Shown here one piece after another: positions 6,930 through 64,000 of a stretch of DNA of 64,000 nucleotides (the first letter of the stretch is position 1; every line of letters begins with the position of its first letter). The stretch comes from Chiua virens (Eukaryota; Basidiomycota; Agaricomycetes; Boletales; Boletaceae), in contig JAHNUO010000011.1 in assembly GCA_019787685.1 (NCBI GenBank), positions 496,001-560,000 on the forward strand. Direction: 5' to 3'. The position numbers were made by a program, and so were the translations under genes. The notes beneath the pieces were generated by a model that was not told the DNA's origin, searched no databases, and was given only the letters and a program-made list of their open reading frames with translations.

Positions 6930-7359
6930 TGAAACAACCTAGAACAAATCTAGACTGTAAAGTGTAGTGGATGAAGTGAGAGGGGATTCAGTCCAGATGA
7001 GAGGCGAAAACTCCAAGAGAACTTTGTTAGAGCTCTCTGGCTGTCATTCATGGGGTTTATATACTACATGGAAATCGGAGTTCTAATCTGAGTATGAACT
7101 ACGTAGATGAGCATAATGTATCCTATTGGATGATAAGGTGTGAATAGATATGAGTCATAGATAAGAGCATAGTCTTGCACTGCCGAGTATGAGTCAGTGA
7201 TAAGAGAAATGAAAAGATAAGGACATGTGTTGATGGATGCTGTGTTATTGTGGCAGCCAATCGGATATGATCCTTTGGACAGCCTTGACATGAGGCGTGT
7301 ATCTTTAGAATAGATTGAAAGTTGGAGTTGTGAAGTGAGGAAAAGTTGATATCGTAACA
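6930..7359 (-). repeat. 3' LTR of the chromovirus
   Basis: 430 bp with TG..CA ends on the minus strand (TGTTACG...GTTTCA). It contains the TATA box (7056-7063) and the 11-mer AACAAAGTTCT (plus-strand 7018-7028) that mirrors the primer site. The last codons of pol extend into it; the stop is at 7305-7307. Confidence 0.95.
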
Positions 7360-10300
7360 CTATCCCCCTTCTGATGATTAGACTCCGAATGATCTATTTC
7401 ATAATTGAGACGATGGAGACTATCCTCATCTTCGTATGAAGTTTTATCGTCATAGGTTCGAAACATAGAGTTAAATTCGGTTTGTGTGACTTTTAGTTTT
7501 CTTGGGGCATCTGGATGTGCTTCATGGAAGTCGGATATGAGATCCGGTGCATTCTTTAGATTCTTTAGTGGTTCCCAAGTTCTTTCGTCATCGTCATAAC
7601 CTTTCCAGTGTATGAGATATTCTAGGCGTCGTCCCTTCATTCGGGAGTCAACGATGTAGTCTGCTTCGAATTCTTCTTCTCGGTCATCTCCGATTATGAC
7701 AGGTCGCGGTTTGTAAACCGGTTGTTCTGGTAGATGTTCCTTATATGGTTTGACCTGAGAAATGTTTACGACTGGATGTATTCGCATAGTGCGTGGGAGT
7801 CGAAGCTTTAAAGCGTTCGGACCATGCATAGAGATTATGTCATAGGGGCCAATCCATTTATCCGTGAATTTAGGGTGTTGCTTTATTTTTAGGTTTGTGG
7901 TAGAGAGCCAGACCTTGTCACCAATTGAATAGGAGGGAGGTGCTGATCTCGATTTATCTGCAACGTTTTTCATATGTTCCGCGGCTTTATCTATATTAGA
8001 TTTTGTTTGCTCTAGGACTTCGGAGAAATCCGTAATGAAGTTTTGAGCAGCCGGGTTTTTCATGGATTGTGGCATAATTCCCATTCTAGGGACGTAGGAA
8101 CGTGTGATTTCGAATGGTGAGAATTTAGTGGCAGTGTGTTTCTTGCTGTTATATGAGAATTGTGCGAGAGGGAGCCAGTCGGTCCATGTGTTGTCTTTCT
8201 CTGCACAGAACATGCGAAGATATTGTTGCACTTCTCGGTTCATCCGTTCCGATTGTCCATCTGTTTGTGGGTGGTGTGCGGTGCTTAATTTGGGTGTTAT
8301 TTTTAACCCTGAGCATATATCTTTCATAAGTTGGGAAGCGAATTGTGGTCCTCTATCTGATATGATGGTTTTAGGGAGGCCATGATGTTTCCATATGTGT
8401 GAGAGATATAATTTAGCGGGATCCATAGATGTACACGTTTTGTGGCAGGGAATGAATTCGACTTCTTTCGAGAAGCGATCCACAACCGTGAGGATGGAGT
8501 CATAAGAGTGTGAAAGTGGGAGATCTGTGATGAAATCTGCTGAGATATCTTCCCATGGTAATGACGGTGTTTCTAGGGGTTGTAGGAGTCCTGCTGTTTT
8601 CTGATTAGAACCCTTGAAACGAGCGCATCTTTCACAGTGTGAGACATAATTTTTGACTTCTTCGTTCATGCGAGGCCAAATGTAATTTCGAGAAAGAAGT
8701 TCTAAAGTTTTGTCATAACTGGGATGTCCTGCTTCCGGTGTGTCATGAAACATCGTGATAGATTTAGTGCGTAATGCATCGGGAATGAAGATCTTATCCC
8801 CCTTTCTAAGGAAGGCGTCCTCGACTTTATATCCGATAGATAGTAGGTGTTTCATGGCATTAGGTGATAGTTTCATAGTTTCATGTTGTACGTCAGATAG
8901 AAATTGATCCCCGTTGTATAGGAGAGTGACGGCTGATCTGATCTTAGATGGATCCATGAGAAGGATTCCTTTGTTATCATCTTCGATTCCGATCATGTGA
9001 TCTTCTCTTCTGCTTAGAGCATCTGCTTTTCCCATAGTGACTCCAGCCTTGTGGTGCCAAGTGAAGTTAAAACGTGAGAGATATTGTGCCCATCTCGCTT
9101 GTCTTCGGTTAAGATCTTGGCGTGTCATAAACCATGTAAGGTTCTGGTGGTCATTCCATATTTCAAATTCATGTTTTGCACCCTCAAGGTAGTGGCGCCA
9201 TAGTTCTAGGGAACGGATAACCGAAAGCATTTCTTTGTCGGCTATAGGGTAGTTTCGTTCTTCTGGTGTCATAGAGTGGCTATTGTAAGCGACTGGATGC
9301 CAAAGTCCTTCTTTTTCTAAAGATAGAACTGCTCCTGTAGCGAAATCCGATGAATCGCATTCTAAGCGATATTTGGCGTTCTGATCCGGATAAGCGAGGA
9401 TAGGGGCTGTCGTAAAAGCCTTCTTAAGCATAGTGAATGCTTCGTCACAAGCGAAGGTCCATTCGAATTTCTGATCCTTTTTAGTAAGGTCGTGTAAAGG
9501 TCGTGCTATTTTTCCATAATCTTTAATGAATCTGCGATAGAAGTTGGCAAGTCCGAGGAAACTTCTGATGTGTTTGACTGAGGTAGGAGTAGGCCATTCA
9601 GCGACTGCTTTGGTCTTTTCGTTATCCATTTTTATTCCATCAGTTCCCACAATCATTCCGAGGAAGTCTACTTCTTTTACGCGAAAGAAGCACTTTTCTG
9701 GTTTAATATAAAGATCATTTTCTTCGAGACGTTTGAGTACTTCGAGTACGATTTTGTCATGAGTTTCATAGTCATCGGTGTCTGTAAAGATCATAAGGTC
9801 ATCGATGTAGACGACAACGACACCGTTCATATCAGCAAAGATTTCGTTCATCATAGTTTGAAACGTTGCTGGTGAGTTGCATAATCCAAAGTACATGACG
9901 ATGGGTTCGAAAGAACCTCTGTGGCAGACGAAAGCTGCTTTCCATTCATCGCCTTCTTTGATGCGTACGTTATTGTATCCCCATCGGAGATCCATTTTTG
10001 TGAGAAGTTTGGCGTCTTTTAATTTATCCACAAGCTGCGAAATGAGCGGCAAGGGGTAGTTATTCTTAATCGTATGTTCGTTTATGTAACGGTAATCTTG
10101 GACCATTCGTTTCTTTCCATCTTTCTTTGGAACAAAGAAGACTGGAGATGTTTGTTCGGATTTAGAGGGTCTGATGTAACCTTTCTTTAATTGGTCATCA
10201 ATAAATGCAGAGACCTCCTCTTGTTCTGTGACAGAGAGGGGTATTAAGCGACCCTTCTTGGGAACGAACGATTCTTTTAGGTCAATGTGGTGATCCCATG

Positions 10301-11162
10301 GTTTGCGTAATGGTATCCTTTCAGATTCCGTTTTTCCAAAGACTTTAGCATATTTCATATATTCTCGTGGGACCATCTCTTCAAGAGTGCGTTCCTTAGG
10401 AGGAGAAGGTGAAGTTTCCATGTTTGCGGTAAAAATTCGCGATTCTGCAATAGAATTTGCATATCTAAGTTCTTCTGCGATAACGGAATCCAAGAAGTCG
10501 TCTTCTTCTTGAGAGTGACATGATTCGGGACATCTCCGCATTATAACCGATCCTGTGGACCAATCAATATGAGGGTTGTGGTGCTTTAACCATGTATATC
10601 CGAGGATAAGGTCGTTCTTTCCAAGGTTGGTAATTTCAGCATCCACTATTTCCCTGTGTCCTTTGTAGTCGATAAGGATCTGTGCTGCGTGAGTAATAGA
10701 ACCCGCTTGATTCTTGGTTCCATCGACATTAAAGACTTGTATAGCATGTGGTAGCGCGTGTGTGGGAAGTTTATGCTTTGCGACGTAATCCTCGTGTATG
10801 AAGATCGCATTAGCTCCACTATCAAGAAGCGCTTTTGCTCCAACGTAACCAATTTGGTTTACTGGGGATACCAAAATTGGTAAAACAATTTCTTTTTCTA
10901 CCGATGTAGATCTAATGAAAGACCCATCGGGGATTTGTTTTGGGACAGAATTAAGCACGGAACTATCGTGTCCGCCGCGCTCCGCAGAGACGCTGTCAAC
11001 GCTTTCGTTTTCTGTTGTTTTTGGTGATTTAGGTAGTTTATCCTCTTGCCAGGGAGGTATTTCGGAATAAGCGAAATCGAACTTTAAAGAAATAGAGTTT
11101 TCATATGATTTAGGAAGGGTTGTGCGAACGTGAGATCCCAGTTTACTCAGTTCGCCTTGCCT
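7305..11162 (-). CDS. Pol: protease-RT-RNase H-integrase-chromodomain (via -1 frameshift)
   Basis: This is the enzyme polyprotein of the chromovirus. The frame is open from 11180 to the stop at 7305-7307 and has no AUG before the protease, so it is probably made as Gag-Pol by -1 frameshifting at 11162-11168 (about 1,285 codons after the slip). Numbering from the GTG at 10958: aspartic protease DSGA 46-49; RT with YIDD 384-387; RNase H around 530-650; integrase zinc finger H738, H745, C775, C778; catalytic D808, D868, E904; GPY-type module about 1035-1055; chromodomain about 1097-1134 (YLIHWKGY..TWEP). All key residues are present. The chromodomain suggests targeting to methylated histone H3, which would suit this heterochromatin-like region; that is inference. 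Confidence 0.96.
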   Translation of the reverse strand, partial: RQGELSKLGSHVRTTLPKSYENSISLKFDFAYSEIPPWQEDKLPKSPKTTENESVDSVSAERGGHDSSVLNSVPKQIPDGSFIRSTSVEKEIVLPILVSPVNQIGYVGAKALLDSGANAIFIHEDYVAKHKLPTHALPHAIQVFNVDGTKNQAGSITHAAQILIDYKGHREIVDAEITNLGKNDLILGYTWLKHHNPHIDWSTGSVIMRRCPESCHSQEEDDFLDSVIAEELRYANSIAESRIFTANMETSPSPPKERTLEEMVPREYMKYAKVFGKTESERIPLRKPWDHHIDLKESFVPKKGRLIPLSVTEQEEVSAFIDDQLKKGYIRPSKSEQTSPVFFVPKKDGKKRMVQDYRYINEHTIKNNYPLPLISQLVDKLKDAKLLTKMDLRWGYNNVRIKEGDEWKAAFVCHRGSFEPIVMYFGLCNSPATFQTMMNEIFADMNGVVVVYIDDLMIFTDTDDYETHDKIVLEVLKRLEENDLYIKPEKCFFRVKEVDFLGMIVGTDGIKMDNEKTKAVAEWPTPTSVKHIRSFLGLANFYRRFIKDYGKIARPLHDLTKKDQKFEWTFACDEAFTMLKKAFTTAPILAYPDQNAKYRLECDSSDFATGAVLSLEKEGLWHPVAYNSHSMTPEERNYPIADKEMLSVIRSLELWRHYLEGAKHEFEIWNDHQNLTWFMTRQDLNRRQARWAQYLSRFNFTWHHKAGVTMGKADALSRREDHMIGIEDDNKGILLMDPSKIRSAVTLLYNGDQFLSDVQHETMKLSPNAMKHLLSIGYKVEDAFLRKGDKIFIPDALRTKSITMFHDTPEAGHPSYDKTLELLSRNYIWPRMNEEVKNYVSHCERCARFKGSNQKTAGLLQPLETPSLPWEDISADFITDLPLSHSYDSILTVVDRFSKEVEFIPCHKTCTSMDPAKLYLSHIWKHHGLPKTIISDRGPQFASQLMKDICSGLKITPKLSTAHHPQTDGQSERMNREVQQYLRMFCAEKDNTWTDWLPLAQFSYNSKKHTATKFSPFEITRSYVPRMGIMPQSMKNPAAQNFITDFSEVLEQTKSNIDKAAEHMKNVADKSRSAPPSYSIGDKVWLSTTNLKIKQHPKFTDKWIGPYDIISMHGPNALKLRLPRTMRIHPVVNISQVKPYKEHLPEQPVYKPRPVIIGDDREEEFEADYIVDSRMKGRRLEYLIHWKGYDDDERTWEPLKNLKNAPDLISDFHEAHPDAPRKLKVTQTEFNSMFRTYDDKTSYEDEDSLHRLNYEIDHSESNHQKGDSVTISTFPHFTTPTFNLF
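7360..7372 (-). promoter_or_regulatory. Polypurine tract
   Basis: Minus-strand AGAAGGGGGATAG lies directly against the 3' LTR start TGTTACG. This is the expected plus-strand DNA primer. It is also coding: it specifies part of the pol C terminus. Confidence 0.85.
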
Positions 11163-12319
11163 TTTCCCTTCTTTTCGGTTTCATACTTGTCGTAATAGTA
11201 TGCCTGAACTTCTTCAGGAGTCATTCCGCGGATGGCCGCAAAGGGGTCCTTGTCCGGGACTGAAGAAGTGGAAGCCTTAGGGGTTTCCTTTTGAGATGTG
11301 GATCTCGCTTTTCGAGTTTTGCCACATGAGGCCTTGTGATTTCCGGCGTAGTATTTACACTCCGGGCATTGTACTTTGGGTTTAGGGCAATCCCTAGGGA
11401 AATGTCCCTTTTCTCCGCAGTTGAAGCACTTGTTGTTGGGGTTGGCCTTCTTTTGACCAAATGCCCTTACTTCTTTGCCGGTAAACCAGCCATCTTCGTC
11501 TTGTTCGTAGGTTACAGCCCCTATGTCCATTGCATTGGGGTCCTTTTGTTTCCAATTCCTTTCTCCTCGGACATAGTTGATTGACTCGAAGGAGTTACCT
11601 GCCGTGCGAATTGCAGCGAGGTATTTGGTTACCGCTTGATTGCGGTCGGAAATGTAGGCGGGGTGTGCCGAGTTGGTGTATATCGGATCATTCGGATCTT
11701 GCCGTTGTCCGTCCTTGAAGATCTGGAATATTATACTTCTGGCCGTGTTGGTTTCCAGAAGCCTTATGGCATGTGTGGGATCGATCTGGGCTTGTTGCCA
11801 CAGATTTTCCCATCGGACTATGAAGTCTTCGACCCTCATGTTACCCTGTTTTAGGTTTTCCAATTGGGTACGAGCCCAGTCCACCTTGTTGTTTTGTCGG
11901 AACATTCCTTCTATGTCCACGACTAGTTGTGCCCATGTGAGTTTAGAACCTTGAGCTAGTCTTGTCTCGGCGAATTGCGAGCTTTTTGCTCCTTTGAGAC
12001 GTGAAAGTACAGCGAGTACTGCATGATGTGAATCAGGAGCGATAGCCCTCTGATTGATGTCGAGCCATCCTTTCATCTTTGCCCACCATTCTTCGAATTT
12101 GGTTTGGTCTCCGTCATAGAGACCGGGGTCTGCGAATATTTCGACTTTTGATGAGGTGGCCGCTGGTGCTACTGCTCCAGCGTTGATCTTGTTTTCTAAC
12201 GTGGCAACTACATTCGTCAATTCTTGGACCAGCCAAGCCGATGCCGTGAGACGATCTCCATCGTTCATCGATTGGTTGTTCAGATCTCTGAGGGCGGTGG
12301 CGTAGGTGTATCCTGACAT
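11147..12319 (-). CDS. Gag structural protein
   Basis: 390 codons from the ATG at 12319-12317 to TGA at 11149-11147. A slightly longer TTG-initiated reading (12328) is possible, but the ATG has A at -3 and lies two bases after the ORF2 stop. Residues about 58-200 resemble the Retrotrans_gag capsid domain (WWAKMKGWLD..LSRLKGAKSSQFA). A CCHC zinc knuckle follows at about 298-311 (CFNCGEKGHFPRDC), with a second Cys/His cluster at about 318-332 (CPEC..H..C). The Lys-rich end contains the frameshift site. The product should form the virus-like particle and bind element RNA. It is the third AUG from the predicted 5' end of the RNA. Confidence 0.95.
   Translation of the reverse strand: MSGYTYATALRDLNNQSMNDGDRLTASAWLVQELTNVVATLENKINAGAVAPAATSSKVEIFADPGLYDGDQTKFEEWWAKMKGWLDINQRAIAPDSHHAVLAVLSRLKGAKSSQFAETRLAQGSKLTWAQLVVDIEGMFRQNNKVDWARTQLENLKQGNMRVEDFIVRWENLWQQAQIDPTHAIRLLETNTARSIIFQIFKDGQRQDPNDPIYTNSAHPAYISDRNQAVTKYLAAIRTAGNSFESINYVRGERNWKQKDPNAMDIGAVTYEQDEDGWFTGKEVRAFGQKKANPNNKCFNCGEKGHFPRDCPKPKVQCPECKYYAGNHKASCGKTRKARSTSQKETPKASTSSVPDKDPFAAIRGMTPEEVQAYYYDKYETEKKGKGKAN
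11162..11168 (-). promoter_or_regulatory. Probable -1 ribosomal frameshift site GGGAAAA
   Basis: In the gag frame this reads G GGA AAA, matching the X XXY YYZ slippery pattern. It lies inside the only window where the pol frame is open and gag has not stopped (11180 to 11147). I did not test for a downstream pseudoknot. Confidence 0.7.
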
Positions 12320-12321
12320 GT

Positions 12322-12567
12322 TTACCAAGCGTCAGTTGCAGGTTCTGGTGCTCCCCAAGCGTTAGCGGTGGCTGTTCCGTATTCTTCGTAGGGTGAGAAA
12401 AGACCAAAAGTTAGTGCGAAAGGGTAGTCTCGTCGTTTGATAGAGACGTAAATTGGGCGTTGTGATTCTTGTACCTTGTTCGTAAGGTAGAGTGCGATGT
12501 AGGAGAATAGAAAGGTGACTAAGGTGCAAGCGGCGATAAAGACGATTGCGACGAGTTCCCAAGACAT
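12322..12567 (-). CDS. ORF2: 81-aa single-pass membrane protein upstream of gag
   Basis: I do not recognise a family. The frame has an ATG at 12567-12565 and a TAA at 12324-12322. Residues about 4-28 form a hydrophobic helix (ELVAIVFIAACTLVTFLFSY), followed by a basic segment (YVSIKRRDYPF) and a short polar tail. Charge favours an N-out, C-in anchor. It starts 16 nt after the ORF1 stop and ends two bases before the gag ATG (TAAACATG), a spacing suited to termination-reinitiation. Its AUG is the second in the predicted RNA and has weak context (T at -3). A membrane protein encoded before gag is unusual; envelope-like genes normally follow pol. It could instead be a short ORF tuning gag translation, or lie in an intron. 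Confidence 0.65.
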   Translation of the reverse strand: MSWELVAIVFIAACTLVTFLFSYIALYLTNKVQESQRPIYVSIKRRDYPFALTFGLFSPYEEYGTATANAWGAPEPATDAW

Positions 12568-12583
12568 AAAATTGTTTTGCTAT

Positions 12584-13171
12584 TTAAAGGTAGCGAGAAG
12601 GAATCCTAAGAGTATTTCTAGGACGTAGGGAAGGGAATTCTCGGTTATCGTATTGTGAATAAGGCCGGATGCGAGAAGGTACTCGATTAGCTTTGTAGCG
12701 TCTAAGTATTCTTTTTCTTTCTAGCTCTGTGCGAGCGTTTCTCCTTTCAATCTCACGAGGTGGGAGCCAGTCGTTAGGGTCTCCGAAACTTTCCTCAGAA
12801 GGCTCTCGTAATGGAGCAGGTGGGAATGGGGACGGTTCTCTTTTGGGAATGGGAGCGGGGAAATATTCGCGCTCTGGTTCCTCAGATGGATACCGTAACT
12901 CCGGGCTGTCGGACCGGGTTGACTCTCTTTCTGATGAGTAGTCTGGGAGCGATGAATCGTCTCCTAAAAAGTGGCCTAATAAGGCGTGGAAGATCTCTGT
13001 GTTGGTACGGTCCTCGGGATCTAAATCCTCTAAGGCGACGACTTCTGCAAGGTAGGCGGCGTCGAAGACGTAGGGTTCGTCAACGAGGTCAGGGAAAGCT
13101 TCCTGAGCGGCGGCGATAGCAGAGAGAGGGAGGTTGGACACTATTTTTTGTGGTCTCAGTAAAGAGGACAA
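12584..13171 (-). CDS. ORF1: 195-codon Pro/Glu/Arg-rich frame without its own AUG
   Basis: An open frame of 195 codons, preceded by an in-frame TGA at about 13180 and containing no methionine codon. Its first half is acidic (EAFPDLVDEPYVFDAAYLAEVV), its middle rich in Ser, Pro and Glu (KREPSPFPPAP), and its end rich in Arg. That suggests a disordered, perhaps nucleic-acid-binding protein. No family is recognised. The only nearby AUG (13178-13176) lies one base out of frame; an A6 run at 13149-13144 just downstream would join that AUG to ORF1 if slipped by one base. Possible explanations are non-AUG initiation, a one-base mutation or assembly error, programmed slippage, or splicing. A coding role is supported by the composition and by the lack of internal AUGs in any frame. 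Confidence 0.55.
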   Translation of the reverse strand: MSSLLRPQKIVSNLPLSAIAAAQEAFPDLVDEPYVFDAAYLAEVVALEDLDPEDRTNTEIFHALLGHFLGDDSSLPDYSSERESTRSDSPELRYPSEEPEREYFPAPIPKREPSPFPPAPLREPSEESFGDPNDWLPPREIERRNARTELERKRILRRYKANRVPSRIRPYSQYDNREFPSLRPRNTLRIPSRYL

Positions 13172-13361
13172 TGAGCATCAAAGGGTGCGCTATCGACTTC
13201 TGCGCTATGTGGACCTTTGGTCTCGAGCGGCTTCTGAAGAGGATATAATCTTCCGTTCAAAGGGTTGCGACTTACTCTGTGCGCTTGTTCCTCTTGTTTA
13301 GTGGTAAGACGGCTACGACGAGGTCGAGGGACTTGACAGTAGTTTCGACGGCGAAGAAAGC

Positions 13362-13372
13362 AACAAAGTTCT
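13362..13372 (-). promoter_or_regulatory. Self-priming primer-binding site
   Basis: Two bases after the 5' LTR, minus-strand AGAACTTTGTT is perfectly complementary over 11 nt to AACAAAGTTCT in the LTR (13473-13463), just where the transcript should start. No tRNA-type TGG primer site is present. This matches Tf1/sushi self-priming. Confidence 0.75.
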
Positions 13373-13374
13373 AA

Positions 13375-13804
13375 TGAAACAACCTAGAACAAATCTAGAC
13401 TGTAAAGTGTAGTGGATGAAGTGAGAGGGGATTCAGTCCAGATGAGAGGCGAAAACTCCAAGAGAACTTTGTTAGAGCTCTCTGGCTGTCATTCATGGGG
13501 TTTATATACTACATGGAAATCGGAGTTCTAATCTGAGTATGAACTACGTAGATGAGCATAATGTATCCTATTGGATGATAAGGTGTGAATAGATATGAGT
13601 CATAGATAAGAGCATAGTCTTGCACTGCCGAGTATGAGTCAGTGATAAGAGAAATGAAAAGATAAGGACATGTGTTGATGGATGCTGTGTTATTGTGGCA
13701 GCCAATCGGATATGATCCTTTGGACAGCCTTGACATGAGGCGTGTATCTTTAGAATAGATTGAAAGTTGGAGTTGTGAAGTGAGGAAAAGTTGATATCGT
13801 AACA
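13375..13804 (-). promoter_or_regulatory. 5' LTR with promoter
   Basis: 430 bp, reading identical to the 3' LTR. TATATAAA lies at 13508-13501, and about 35 nt downstream is the self-priming 11-mer (13473-13463), placing the RNA 5' end near there. From that point to 13178 there is no AUG. Confidence 0.9.
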
Positions 13805-13809
13805 CATAA
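13805..13809. other. Target site duplication CATAA
   Basis: The right-hand partner of 6925-6929. Confidence 0.9.
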
Positions 13810-16160
13810 ATGAATGAATAATACAACTTGTACTTATCTTACCATGGAGCCTGACAGACCCATGACACTTGAAAATATCAAGTAAGACATGTTTCCTGAA
13901 GACCTTGATAGCATATGCTACAATGATATCATTGGCTCCTAGGTCCATTTGTATGTTGATGAGGAAATGATGTCAAGGATTTGAGGAAACCAAATGGATA
14001 TCACATATGATACGAAGTCTAAATACAGCAATTCAGCATGCCCTATTTCCAACCATACACCTACTGTAATCTTGATGTGATCCAAACCCCCCTTATCTAT
14101 CAGGACAAGCATTTTGAGCATCACTAGACCTAGAACCTTCACTGTGTATATCCTAGCATCAATTGCTACAGGTACCACATGACCATGACCACCTTATCAC
14201 ATGTGTCACATAACCCAAGCATTGTTCAAGCTAGCCTGTGTCATTCAAATGGTCAGCAATGAAACCCACAACAAGTGTGAGACCATTGTCAGAGATCATC
14301 TATTAGGGAGATACTCAGATGTATAGAACAAATATTGTATTTGATTGGAAACATGTCATACCTCTTGGGTGGGTTTTTTCCACACATAATTGAGCTATGA
14401 AAGCTGTCCCTGCTGTGTTACACCAGACAATCCTTTGGGTAAGGAGACATACCTTTTCCATCATTTCTACAAAGTGATTCTACAGGGATGCTGGGAAAGT
14501 CTTGTGTGATTGTCATCCTGGATGAGCAGAGTGGGCAAGGGAAGGGTGATGCAACACAACATGATGAACAGAAAGGAATAGAGAAGCCTGAAGAGATGAT
14601 GACAACACAACAATTATCCTCTTATGGTTCAGTAATCCCTGGTCACTTGAGCCAGCAAAATGTATATGCATTTCAACATGCAACAGCAACAAATACATTA
14701 GATCAAATGGTTTAAATAGCATTCTTTGAACATTAACTGTGTGCACAGAAAAAAATAGTGACCATCCATGCAGTGAGAACACAGGATTTTTTTTGTTGTG
14801 TTATTGCATATCACCAGTCACTTGAGCCAGTCCAAAAGTAGTATATCAACAGCTTATATGATTATTTGTTGTGGGAAAGTCATCTTATTCATGATCATCA
14901 ATGTTTTTTCTTGCTGATGGAGCATGCACAGCCAACAATTGAGGTGTGCTATGAGTAGTATATTGAACAACATGTGTAGCACCTAAAATAATTTGATGAG
15001 GTTGAGCATTGTCTGATGCTATTGTAGATACTTACTGATAAGATCTTGGAGCTGATAAGACAAGATAAACAAACAAAATCCATACTCATTCAGTATGTTG
15101 CTGGCAAGTTATCCTGTCCACTAATAATGGATTAATCATTCAGAACATGTCATTAATGGCTGACTGTGAAGTCTCTATGGCATGGGGTGCTGCTTATGTC
15201 TAACTTGCACTCATATGACACACAAATGCTCACTTTCACACATATTTTCAGCAATTATTCATGTTCAGACAACAGTGTAGACCTCTATTAATTTCCATGG
15301 CTTCCTATATGTATATGTTCCTGATGAGCTACTATAGTTGTGATGCCACTCTGATATGAATGGTGTGTGTGAAAGTTGATTGGCTCAAGTGACTGTGGTG
15401 GCTCAAGTGCCCAGGAATCACTGTTATCACATCATCAATGTTGTTGTCAGGTGAGATGGGGGAGAGTGAAGCAAGGGCAAGGGAAGATGAAGGTGACACA
15501 ATCAGGATGAACAGAATGGGGAGAACATAGGAATTTTGACAAACAAGAGGAGAGTAGCAAAATGAGAATGAGGGTAAAACAATGATGATGTGGACAAACA
15601 TGCTAAAGGGACCATTGCATTGTCATCACAGTCATATCATTTGGCAAGCCAGGGCAAGGCTGAGGCAAAGAGGTAAGGGTGGCATGTGCACATCCAAGCC
15701 AACACACAAAGGACAGGTCAAGGGGCAGCATTGAATGAGAACAAGCATGAAACATGAATGAAGTGCCCATGCATGTTTGGAGGTGAGCAATGAGTGGTAA
15801 TTGAGGTACAAAGGGGAGTGTATGAATCTTCAGTACCAGTGCCATGCTAACTATTTGGTGTGAAGTAGTTGAGGAGAAATGGTCTGGGAGATGGGTTTTC
15901 ATTCATTGAAGTTATATAGATACTAGTAGTTGGAAAGTGGTCACAGGCTGAGAGTGTGGGAACCTTGAAAGAACTTGAATGGTTACTGATCTTCAATTAC
16001 TTGCTTCAGTTGAACAAGAAATAGTGTCAGCATGGAAATGGCTGAGAGAATATAGACATAGCTCATGGTAAGCTATGTTCTACTGTCTATTATAAGTCTA
16101 AGAAATCAATCAGAGCTTTTCTCCTCCTCCTGTTGAAGGTGAATATAAGGTATAGGTCAT
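13810..16160. other. Unassigned decayed sequence with inverted repeats
   Basis: No gene recognised. A tcacttgagcca motif occurs near 14643 and 14819 and inverted near 15379 and 15402, with partly similar flanks, hinting at the remains of a TIR element. The tract is CpG-poor. Confidence 0.35.
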
Positions 16161-61268: not shown

Positions 61269-62160
61269 CTACTTACACGAAAGAAGTCCTAGCATAGAAC
61301 AGAAATGCTGCACTTTGACTCGAAGCAATGCCTTTGTCAACAGATCAGGAGGCATATCAGTACCAGCGAAGGTCCGAGTGCTTCATCCTGCCATGATGCT
61401 CGGGGTGTTTGGCTACCTGGATCGCTGATTGGTTGTCCATATGGAGGGTCGAAGCTCCAGAGCCAAGTTCCGGGAGGAGTTTGCGCATCCAGACGATCTC
61501 CTTGCCTGCCTCGCATGCTGCGACATACTCTGCTTCAGTGGTAGAGAGGGCGACAATGGGCTGGCACTTGGACATCCATGAGACGACACCAGTGCCAATC
61601 TTGACGACATATGCACTGGTGGAGCGTCCAGAATTTTTGCAACCACCATGGTTCGCATCAGATAATGTGCTGAAGAGCTCTGAGGACGTCGGGTCAGGGG
61701 AATAGGTGATGCTGAAGTTCGCAGTACCCTCAGGGGGATATAGCGAAATAGGTGCTTAATGGCGTTCCAATGCACCACACCTGGATCAGACGTGAAAGAG
61801 GCGAGCTGACCGACTGCAAAAGCAATATTAGGTCGAGTCGCACAGGACAGGTACTGGAGAGAGCCAATGGCGCCTCCATAATCGACAGATCGCATGAAAT
61901 TGCGCTCGTCTGTCGTTCTGGGGGTCTGCTCGCGCGATAGGCACAACCCAGGCTCCATGGGCGTCGTCACAGACTTACAGTCAGTCATGTTGAAGCGAGA
62001 CAGCATGTCGACGTAATATTGGGGCTGGGAGAGCGTCAGGGAATGCTTGGAACGATTGCGATCGACCTTGATGCCTAGGATCTCTGTGGTAGGTCCCAGA
62101 TCACGCAATTTGAGGAGGAGGAACCAAAGGCACCCCCCCCCCCCCAGGATGTAGAATCCC
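61269..62160 (-). pseudogene. Copia RT C-terminal end and RNase H
   Basis: Starts just after the C13 run. RT end: KLRDLGPTTEILGIKVDRN, YYVDMLSRFNMTDCKSVTTP, ATRPNIAFAVGQLASFTSDP. RNase H (after a frame change): SDANHGGCKNSGRST (Asp), VALSTTEAEYVA (Glu), MDNQSAIQVAK (Asp). Near 61360 a deletion joins HSDLR directly to AGTDMPPDLLTKAL, removing about 15-20 residues that are still present in the relic at 54.1-54.9 kb. Pol ends SCK followed by TAG (61271-61269). The RT palm with YVDD is absent. Confidence 0.85.
62133..62145. repeat. 13-nt poly-C run at the RT deletion junction
   Basis: Thirteen consecutive C on the plus strand, exactly where the integrase-RT linker jumps to the RT C-terminal third. 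Confidence 0.85.
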
Positions 62161-62204
62161 AGGAGCAGCTGCATCATCTGATATAAAGTCGTCGCTATGG
62201 GGTG

Positions 62205-63461
62205 CTACGTAAGGCACCATGGGCGCAATGATGGGTACTGGGTCAGTGAGGGTGAGGGTAGGGCGCTCATCGAAATCAGCTCGTTCTGAGATGATGGTGC
62301 GCTTGGTGGTGGGGTTGTAGAACTTCCAGGGCGTTTGTCCTTTTGAATATGGACATATGCAGTCGATCCCCAGACTCGCAAGTAAGAGACGTCTGGTTTG
62401 CGTCCATGCAATGGCATCGCTCGAAGGGGGTAGAGTCGTCGAAAGCTGCTATGGGGCATCGATTCCACACATGCACGAGGGCAACGAGGGTTCGCCCCAG
62501 AAGGCCATTGCAAGGCCTGACTCCTTCAACATAGCAGTAATGCGCTCGCTCAGGACGCGCTCGGACGGTGTGCTGGCGCGCTATGCCGCACTCTGTGGTG
62601 AACTGAAGCATCGCATTGCTCATGTCCTCCCCTCCCTTGTCGTCTCGCAGGGTTTTGATCTGTCGCTCGCTCTGGTTCTCTGCAAACGCTTTAAACTGCT
62701 TAAAAGCATGGAAAACATCCGATTTGGCGCGAATTGGGAGCACAAAGCGATACCTGGAGTAGTCGTCGATGAAAGTGACCCAGTAGCGATACCCAGTGAA
62801 GGTAGGATAGGGCACTTGGTGGACATCTGAGTGGACGAGCTCCAGAGGGTGAGATGAGCGAGAGGTAGAGCTGGGGAAGGGATTTACGGTCATCGATAGG
62901 ATCAGGCGATGACGTGCTGTGCAGTTTCATCCCAGTGACTAGCTGGTGATCAGAGAGAGCTTTCACATCAGTGAGGTTGTGGTGCGCAAGCATGTTCCGA
63001 ACGGTCACAGGCTCAGTTGTGCCGTCCAGAAACGCTGCATTGTGACTGTCAATGGTCGCAACGAAGAGAGGTGGTCCAGAAGCGCGCGAAAAGGTCATAT
63101 GCGTCGCATTGATATACACAACGAAGGAGGAGTGACGAGTAAGGTATAACACAGCGAGGAGGTTGTTGCGAAGCTCAGGGACATGCAGGACATTGCTAAA
63201 CTCGACTGCTTGACCGCTTTTCCCTTTAATAACTGCGTGGAACACCACAGACCCGATTCCAGCAAAGTAGACGATGGTATTGTCTGCGAGCTTGATGGGG
63301 ACGCGTTTTGGGGTATAATTGCGCAACCAGTGACGATGAGGCGTCATATGCGAAGTGGCCCCCGAGTCTGCATTCCAGTCATGGTCAGCATCGAGTAGGA
63401 GCGGTGAAGAGGGATCACAGGGATCGCTGGAACGAAGACTTGCATGTCCAGCGCCTTCCAC
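62205..63461 (-). pseudogene. Copia protease, GAG-pre-integrase and integrase
   Basis: Protease: DADHDWNADSGATSHMTPHR with the catalytic DSG. Then LSDHQLVTGMKLHSTSSPDPI, where the pre-integrase zinc motif should continue; a deletion joins SPDPI to TVNPFPSSTS and removes the CxxC half. Integrase core: VHSDVHQVPYP (first Asp), TLRDDKGGE (second Asp), TTECGIARQHTVRARP. Another deletion after RARP removes the QQNGVAERANR segment that carries the catalytic Glu. FWGEP, then KPDVSYLRVWGSTAYVHIQK and the start of the linker follow in shifted frames to about 62205. Non-functional on this evidence. Confidence 0.85.
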
Positions 63462-64000
63462 GACGTCCTGAGCCGCTGGGGGCGATACAGTGGCTGCCTT
63501 GGCCTGTTCAGAGCGTTTGGGGTTCGTTTGCTGCGTCTTGTAGTACTTTTTCGCTCTCTGGAGCGAATAGCACTTGCACTGGCAGTGTCCTCAGGAGGCT
63601 TGTCGCAGAACGAACAGAGCGCATTGGGAGCGCATGAGCAGCCAGAAGACGATGAACAGAGCGCAGAGTCGGCAGGAGTGGTGGAGTGGGCATCAGGGAG
63701 AGGTCGACGATTGATTTCCTCTGTCTGGAACGCCGCTTTGACGAAGGTGGAGGTATGAAGGTCCTTGATTCGAAGCATGCAGTCTTCCACTTGAGCAGCA
63801 AGGGCAGGGAGTGACTCATCAGGACGCTTCCTGATGCTAAAAAACTCGTCATAGGCCACAAAGCGACTGCCAGCCTTCTGCTGCACCAAGACGGCCTTCA
63901 GCGCTTTCCAGGCCTTGGTGAGATCGTCCTGGTCAACTCGGATGTGGACTCATTGATCTGGGGCAATGTTGAGCATCAACTTGCCAGCAGCCTTGTCCTG
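63462..64000 (-). pseudogene. Copia gag (partial, continues beyond window)
   Basis: Frames read KLMLNIAPDQ, then WKALKAVLVQQKAGSRFVAY and DEFFSIRKRPDESLPALAAQ, the UBN2 gag pattern. CSCAPNALCSFCDKP follows, the beginning of a zinc knuckle that lacks its His and last Cys because of a deletion before the protease. One stop (TGA) interrupts the frame near 63950. The N terminus lies beyond the window edge. Confidence 0.75.

Follow-up and report, generated by a model that had tools for sequence, protein, structure and literature searches.

A 64,000-nt stretch of the genome of the bolete Chiua virens (contig JAHNUO010000011.1, positions 496,001 to 560,000; hereafter the window) carries on its minus strand a chromodomain long terminal repeat (LTR) retrotransposon with two extra open reading frames (ORFs), ORF1 and ORF2, ahead of gag. 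The DNA offers no start codon for ORF1. When its leader is analyzed across copies of the element, an intron is predicted that divides the missing codon into A and TG, and this intron is very probably real and the means by which ORF1 is started. The leader as a whole is probably polycistronic and gated by splicing, such that spliced RNA would yield ORF1 and unspliced RNA would serve the remaining genes; that ribosomes scan the unspliced RNA to ORF2 and gag is a part of this proposal that we consider reasonably likely.

The open frame of ORF1 spans 197 codons of DNA without a single ATG. Excision of 135 nt, from GTAAGT through TTTACTGAG to TAG, joins the last base of the predicted exon 1 to TG and produces a 185-codon protein beginning MSNLPLSAIAAAQ (Table 1). 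Copies were sought throughout the 48.3-Mb assembly (136 contigs), and 34 of 40 gave usable leaders, with L029, L035, L038, L040, L045 and L047 left out as their leaders are not spanned at both ends. In the alignment of these 34 leaders the donor junction A|GTAAGT stands at 13276/13275 and the acceptor junction TAG|TG at 13141/13140 (CAG|TG in one copy), and the A|TG join yields an ATG followed by an ORF1-type protein (MSNLPLS, MTSLPLS and similar beginnings) in every one, ORF1 of some copies being broken by stops later on. Upstream of the acceptor the leaders conserve a pyrimidine stretch, the motif ACTGAG and a run of A residues; the length of this run varies, which argues that the segment is not coding. 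The same join works in nine of ten diverged families (ORF1 identity 43-73% among the eight that were aligned), whereas the tenth locus, L070, has an unrelated 5' end and was set aside. Altogether, the arrangement of A|donor followed by YAG|TG is present in 43 of the 44 leaders examined, with GTAAGT as the donor in 42 and GTTAAGT in L069.

Our splice pattern demanded GT(T/A)AAGT and YAG|TG, and the constancy of these sites is in part built into the comparison; the base preceding the donor was left free, though, and it is A in all 43. Among 14 family representatives, likewise selected on donor and acceptor, this -1 position is always A while positions -2 to -12 vary, and YAG|TG is kept as the bases before it change. 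The predicted intron ranges from 130 to 152 nt across leaders without respect for the reading frame. In several diverged families it contains CTGAC and then CAG, the textbook form of a branch site and acceptor.

We also looked for copies that had lost the intron. With a 150-nt probe across the exon junction, 40 of 88 candidates were scored and 57 matches obtained, and in no case are both exons covered; five matches overrun the junction by 3-10 nt, and as ORF1 matches approximately 140-150 nt further on in those five copies, the intron is present in them. No site in the genome fitted a 28-nt pattern spanning the junction when two mismatches were allowed. A 15-nt pattern found 193 sites against 83 in the reversed control, and the 20 of these that were compared (from 100 among the matches listed) included no intronless leader, as judged by similarity only. 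Rare processed copies may exist. The simplest explanation for the lack of intronless copies would be that the unspliced RNA is the template for replication.

A previous reading of this DNA, made from sequence alone, had counted three AUGs from the predicted RNA start to gag, assigned one to each ORF and proposed leaky scanning or reinitiation. The count stands (two ATGs, at 13178 and 12567, on the minus strand from 13473 before that of gag at 12319), as do the bases at -3 (TTG|ATG, TTT|ATG and AAC|ATG, respectively) and the spacings of 16 nt from the ORF1 stop to ORF2 and TAAACATG from ORF2 to gag. The ATG at 13178 had to be rejected as the start of ORF1: it belongs to another frame, opens an ORF of 29 codons, is absent from the other 33 leaders and lies inside the predicted intron. 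With the start of ORF1 moved to the predicted splice junction, the polycistronic order ORF1-ORF2-gag, the AUG deficit, the succession of weak and strong contexts and the short gaps that had prompted the scanning proposal are retained. The sequence-only reading had named as fatal a splice that removes ORF1 and ORF2, and the predicted 135-nt intron leaves both in place and would switch ORF1 on.

The mechanism that we propose is as follows. The intron would divide the ORF1 start codon, and only the spliced RNA would make ORF1. On unspliced genomic RNA there would be no start codon before that of ORF2, and ribosomes would scan through to ORF2 and gag; those that leak past the weak AUG of ORF2 would arrive at gag, perhaps with help from reinitiation across TAAAYATG. 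Pol would be made by -1 frameshifting at GGGAAAA, which is found in all 12 copies with gag open to its end. The split codon would thereby keep ORF1 silent on genomic RNA, and scanning ribosomes would not be captured ahead of ORF2 and gag.

Start contexts and gene order are widely kept among the copies. Wherever ORF2 is intact (31 leaders), its AUG has T at -3, and the gag AUG has A there in 33 of 34 leaders (G in one), giving the weak upstream and stronger downstream contexts expected of a leader like that of rice tungro bacilliform virus (RTBV). ORF2 comes in two types, approximately 30% identical to each other, both of which show this succession: type A has 81 codons and is separated from ORF1 by 11-16 nt, and type B has 87-89 codons and follows the ORF1 stop without a gap, through TAGATG or TAAATG, in each of the 10 copies of this type whose ORF1 is intact. 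In every one of the 31 leaders with ORF2, TAAAYATG or a form differing by one base connects ORF2 to gag. Genome-wide, 85 of 96 ORF2 matches are flanked within 400 nt by ORF1 upstream and gag downstream, and of the 152 gag matches 150 were listed, 127 of which have ORF1 150-700 nt upstream, including gag families that are 41-58% identical. These junctions are also what could be expected if gag were reached mainly by termination and reinitiation, through stop-start coupling from ORF1 to ORF2 to gag, and the abutting type B ORF2 and the TAAAYATG join are the grounds for taking that route seriously. Reinitiation alone needs no AUG-free ORF1 body, would not favor T at -3 of ORF2, and would have to bridge the gap that precedes a type A ORF2; as the main route to gag we consider it possible but unlikely.

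The scarcity of AUGs is significant across lineages. By a fixed rule we assembled 13 young lineages, taken in order of LTR divergence, with LTR divergence below 1%, an intact ORF1 and a pairwise synonymous divergence (dS) in ORF1 of at least 0.3. Their ORF1 and ORF2 together hold 13 out-of-frame ATGs against 53.1 expected by synonymous-codon shuffling, and none of 3000 shuffles was as low. Split by ORF, there are 8 against 28.7 expected in ORF1 and 5 against 24.6 in ORF2 (12 of the 13 lineages); gag, where available in the 13, holds 154 against 119.5 and has no deficit. In-frame methionine codons number 0 of 3370 in ORF1 and ORF2 and 50 of 3458 in gag. The full sets give 23 against 58.1 for 27 intact ORF1s (from the 34 copies, open over more than 500 nt) and 17 against 52.3 for 31 ORF2s. 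The shuffles alter neither a protein nor its codon use, and they ignore kinship among copies. None of the 34 leaders has an ATG in exon 1, and 32 of 34 have none in the intron. Depletion of AUG in all frames of the upstream ORFs, as in RTBV, is what the 13 young lineages display.

Several observations weigh against this picture. In the window copy, base composition predicts 14.0 ATGs before gag (Poisson P(<=2) ~1e-4), where the sequence-only reading had expected 15-18 by chance, but dinucleotide-preserving shuffles predict 5.5 (P(<=2) = 0.064; 2000 shuffles), lower because TG is rare in the leader, and the scarcity in this copy alone is suggestive; its private intronic AUG at 13178 would, moreover, partly spoil the scanning scheme. 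ATGs before gag range from 1 to 8 across the 34 leaders. Among undated diverged copies, nine carry 1-5 ATGs within ORF1, of which seven also carry 1-3 in the intron; the exon-1 stretch of two contains ATGs (the start of exon 1 is not locatable in L077), and the four that have ORF2 hold 2-3 inside it. Ongoing selection against AUG predicts that changes from ACG to ACA exceed those from ACG to ATG, and the ratio of ATG to ACA outcomes was 46:39, compared with 99:81 at other NCG sites (P = 0.90), which gives no sign of selection. A contrast with gag restricted to one codon frame (38:31 against 42:8, P = 0.0014; other CpGs P = 0.61) counts sequences rather than events and is gone when columns are counted (12:10 against 8:6). 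With respect to the intron, the branch site of the window family is ACTGAG, not a strict CTRAY, and in L015, L018, L036, L041 and L077 a nearer YAG|TG could likewise complete an ATG, opening ORFs that would span only 3-41 codons. Finally, splicing, scanning and the ORF products are all predictions.

The rarity of TG, the dinucleotide shuffles, the null CpG test and the additional AUGs of diverged families would all suit the view that AUGs are scarce as a side effect of composition and of methionine-poor proteins rather than through selection on initiation. The synonymous shuffles, in which the proteins are held constant, nonetheless leave the deficit in the 13 lineages standing and find none in gag, and we regard this view as improbable. 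AUG-rich relatives had been named beforehand as the finding that would count against selection, and a comparison of copies with shuffled controls as the way to look for them. The outcome is mixed: the young lineages have the deficit, and relatives are not all AUG-poor, with up to 8 AUGs in older copies and the ORF1 counts of the diverged families given above. The AUG-rich relatives that can be dated are mostly older. The 17 copies with LTR divergence below 1% have a mean of 2.1 ATGs before gag and four older copies a mean of 6.25 (Mann-Whitney P = 0.003; the 1% cut was chosen after the data were seen, and 21 of the 40 copies were dated by their LTRs), and gag ATGs undergo no comparable shift (24.8 in young and 25.8 in older copies). 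Two young copies are relatively AUG-rich, L018 with 4 and L020 with 5.

The ATGs of the leaders likely arose by C-to-T change at CpG. Outside the two ORF2 start columns, 28 alignment columns carry ATGs, of which 27 show ACG in other copies, and ACG is the commonest triplet at 20 of the 28. The leaders show many changes from NCG to NTG and from NCG to NCA, which suggests that copies undergo CpG deamination once inserted. The null CpG test may reflect most variants having arisen after insertion.

Two further explanations concern the start of ORF1 and the mRNA for gag. ORF1 could begin on unspliced RNA at a near-cognate GTG (or at ATA GTG after the A-run), with GTAAGT kept for other reasons; an in-frame GTG does head ORF1 in 43 of 44 leaders, A stands at -3 of it in most of the window family, and ORF I of RTBV uses a non-AUG start, AUU, according to PMC5902531. 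In the most diverged families, however, T or C occupies -3 of the GTG while YAG is kept, the invariance of the GTG is better explained by the acceptor YAG|TG, and a GTG start leaves unexplained the A|GTAAGT some 135 nt upstream, with its invariant exon-side A among free neighbors, so that we find such a start quite implausible. A second, longer splice, in which the conserved donor would pair with another acceptor to remove ORF1 and ORF2 and give gag its own short-leader mRNA, making AUG scarcity irrelevant to gag, is very doubtful: the window has no AG between the ORF2 stop and the gag AUG, and the AUG deficit of ORF1 and ORF2 would go unexplained.

Both upstream ORFs are under purifying selection, ORF1 strongly. 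The ratio of nonsynonymous to synonymous divergence (dN/dS) is 0.10-0.17 for ORF1 (seven pairs), 0.05-0.29 for ORF2 (seven) and 0.03-0.05 for gag (five). The ORF1 protein is acidic in its N-terminal third, rich in proline in the middle and basic in its C-terminal third. Pfam gave no match for ORF1 of the window and at best a weak match to DUF5491 in 7 of 32 relatives, and the AlphaFold model is helical and of low confidence (mean predicted local distance difference test score, pLDDT, 61; predicted template modeling score, pTM, 0.27). ORF2 had no match among the PDB sequences. Seven of the 31 ORF2 proteins were examined, all of 81-89 residues with a hydrophobic segment from residue 2-6; the net charge is -1 or 0 before the segment and +1 to +3 after it, by which the N-terminus would be expected to lie outside.

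The window element has LTRs, a gag with a CCHC knuckle, the domain order protease, reverse transcriptase, RNase H, integrase, and a chromodomain after integrase, which together identify it as a chromovirus (chromodomain Ty3/Gypsy element). Its two LTRs are identical and TTATG is present on both flanks, so the insertion is young. The coordinates are collected in Table 1. An Rfam search of 12300-13810 returned no matches.

Table 1. Features of the retrotransposon and its leader, in window coordinates
Feature	Position	Strand	Details
3' LTR	6930..7359	-	Sequence without difference from 5' LTR
pol open frame	7305..11180	-	-1 relative to gag; protease, reverse transcriptase, RNase H, integrase, Tf2-1-like SH3, chromodomain
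gag	11147..12319	-	390 codons; CCHC knuckle; AUG with A at -3; directly after ORF2 (TAAACATG)
GGGAAAA, candidate -1 frameshift site	11162..11168	-	Gag frame, just ahead of gag stop; pol in -1 frame
ORF2	12322..12567	-	81 codons; AUG with T at -3; hydrophobic segment at residues 6-24, then basic stretch
Predicted exon 2 start (TG) and ORF1 body	12584..13140	-	TAA stop; 185 codons once joined to A13276
Predicted intron	13141..13275	-	135 nt; GTAAGT ... TTTACTGAG ... TAG; contains private ATG 13178
Predicted exon 1	13276..13473	-	198 nt, no ATG; final base A is the first letter of the predicted ORF1 start codon
Primer-binding site AGAACTTTGTT	13362..13372	-	Begins 2 nt past 5' LTR
5' LTR	13375..13804	-	430 bp; ends TG...CA; TTATG 5-bp target-site duplication flanks element
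Predicted first 11 RNA nt AACAAAGTTCT	13463..13473	-	Reverse complement of primer-binding site; putative Tf1-like self-primer
TATA-box-like TATATAAA	13501..13508	-	27 nt upstream of predicted RNA start; function putative

The RNA start at 13473, already proposed in the sequence-only reading, is backed by TATATAAA 27 nt before it and by the 11-nt match of the predicted 5' end to the primer-binding site. All 11 of 11 nucleotides are complementary and are paired at the base of the predicted leader fold, which as a whole is mildly better than that of shuffles (z = -1.7). We take this pairing to be the self-priming arrangement of the Tf1 type, and use Tf1/sushi-type as the group name for self-priming fungal chromoviruses, with which the element shares the chromodomain after integrase and the complementarity of RNA 5' end and primer-binding site. 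With its 5' end as predicted, the RNA would have the complementarity expected of Tf1-type self-priming. Self-priming is mentioned in PMC2864245, and the fungal Gypsy elements surveyed there have mostly one or two ORFs; the window element differs from them in its two additional ORFs before gag.

Copies whose gag did not align were considered as non-autonomous elements and this was rejected, as diverged gag families were found there instead. Across L001-L079, closely similar ORF1 sequences occur together with either type of ORF2, A or B, and with gag families whose identity falls to 41-58%, a shuffling of modules between copies that suggests recombination between element lineages. Second partial copies lie near the first in L028, L026 and L038, consistent with nested or tandem insertions. 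Elsewhere in the window, Ty1/copia-type pol fragments occupy 61416-63590 on the minus strand (RVT_2 below its curated cut-off, Pol_BBD above), and there are two inverted repeats with 207-nt arms, at 3392-3598/4250-4456 (89% complementary, 651 nt apart) and 20771-20977/21361-21567 (77% complementary, 383 nt apart).

When the predicted leader is compared with known systems, likenesses to three of them become apparent. On the pregenomic RNA of RTBV and badnaviruses, ribosomes pass AUG-free ORFs I and II by leaky scanning (PMC5902531). RTBV and the window element share two ORFs ahead of the capsid-pol ORF, over approximately 900 nt with almost no AUG, a suboptimal AUG for the second of them and, as predicted for the window element, a further AUG downstream to which ribosomes scan; RTBV differs in its shunt leader and the AUU start of ORF I, and the window element has no leader rich in upstream ORFs and would start its ORF1 through splicing. 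The likeness would be one of convergence. In Cer1 of C. elegans, a spliced RNA encodes CERV, which is needed to export the unspliced RNA (PMC10309623). Cer1 is likewise an LTR element with an extra protein from a spliced RNA (here predicted) and unspliced RNA for gag-pol and packaging, but CERV is large and multi-domain, whereas ORF1 of the window has 185 residues and no Pfam match. From its basic C-terminus, one might guess that ORF1 is a nuclear regulator like the Cer1 export factor.

The third comparison is with the Drosophila MDG1 group (412, Stalker2), in which a nuclear sORF1 and then a fusogen-like membrane protein of approximately 70 residues, sORF2, are encoded upstream of gag (preprint PMC11952523). 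The two accessory ORFs stand in the same order ahead of gag here. For MDG1 RNA, that source describes a short RNA ending after sORF1 and no splicing. In the seven proteins examined, ORF2 resembles sORF2 and fusion-associated small transmembrane (FAST) proteins in being short, with one putative membrane segment and a basic patch after it. The MGxxxS/T myristoylation motif and an amphipathic ectodomain were looked for in the ORF2 proteins and are absent: the proteins start MSWE, MLAY, MFAC or MIAY, and 1-5 residues precede the segment. For this reason we do not class ORF2 as sORF2/FAST. The myristoylation motif is missing from two of six MDG1 sORF2 as well (PMC11952523). The window element differs from the MDG1 group, then, in being a chromovirus and in an ORF2 with no such motif and almost no ectodomain. 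A literature search, which covered few subscription papers and left sequence relatives in other species outside its range, found no account of a split-start leader in a chromovirus.

If the splice-gated leader that we propose is correct, the intron would be a translation switch, with the regulator silent on the RNA that is scanned for Gag and copied into DNA. More speculatively, and with little confidence, the element could be a fungal chromovirus whose 1.15-kb leader runs two states in the manner of a retrovirus: spliced RNA would give ORF1, acting in the nucleus to regulate the unspliced RNA, and unspliced RNA would give a membrane ORF2 and Gag-Pol by leaky scanning, forming an envelope-free transmission module that arose in parallel to sORF1/sORF2 of MDG1. 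The arrangement, once confirmed, would be a further instance of two accessory ORFs upstream of gag, the second encoding a small membrane protein, and a chromodomain retrotransposon with many young copies to test would then be known to express its genes in ways that recall both retroviruses and pararetroviruses.

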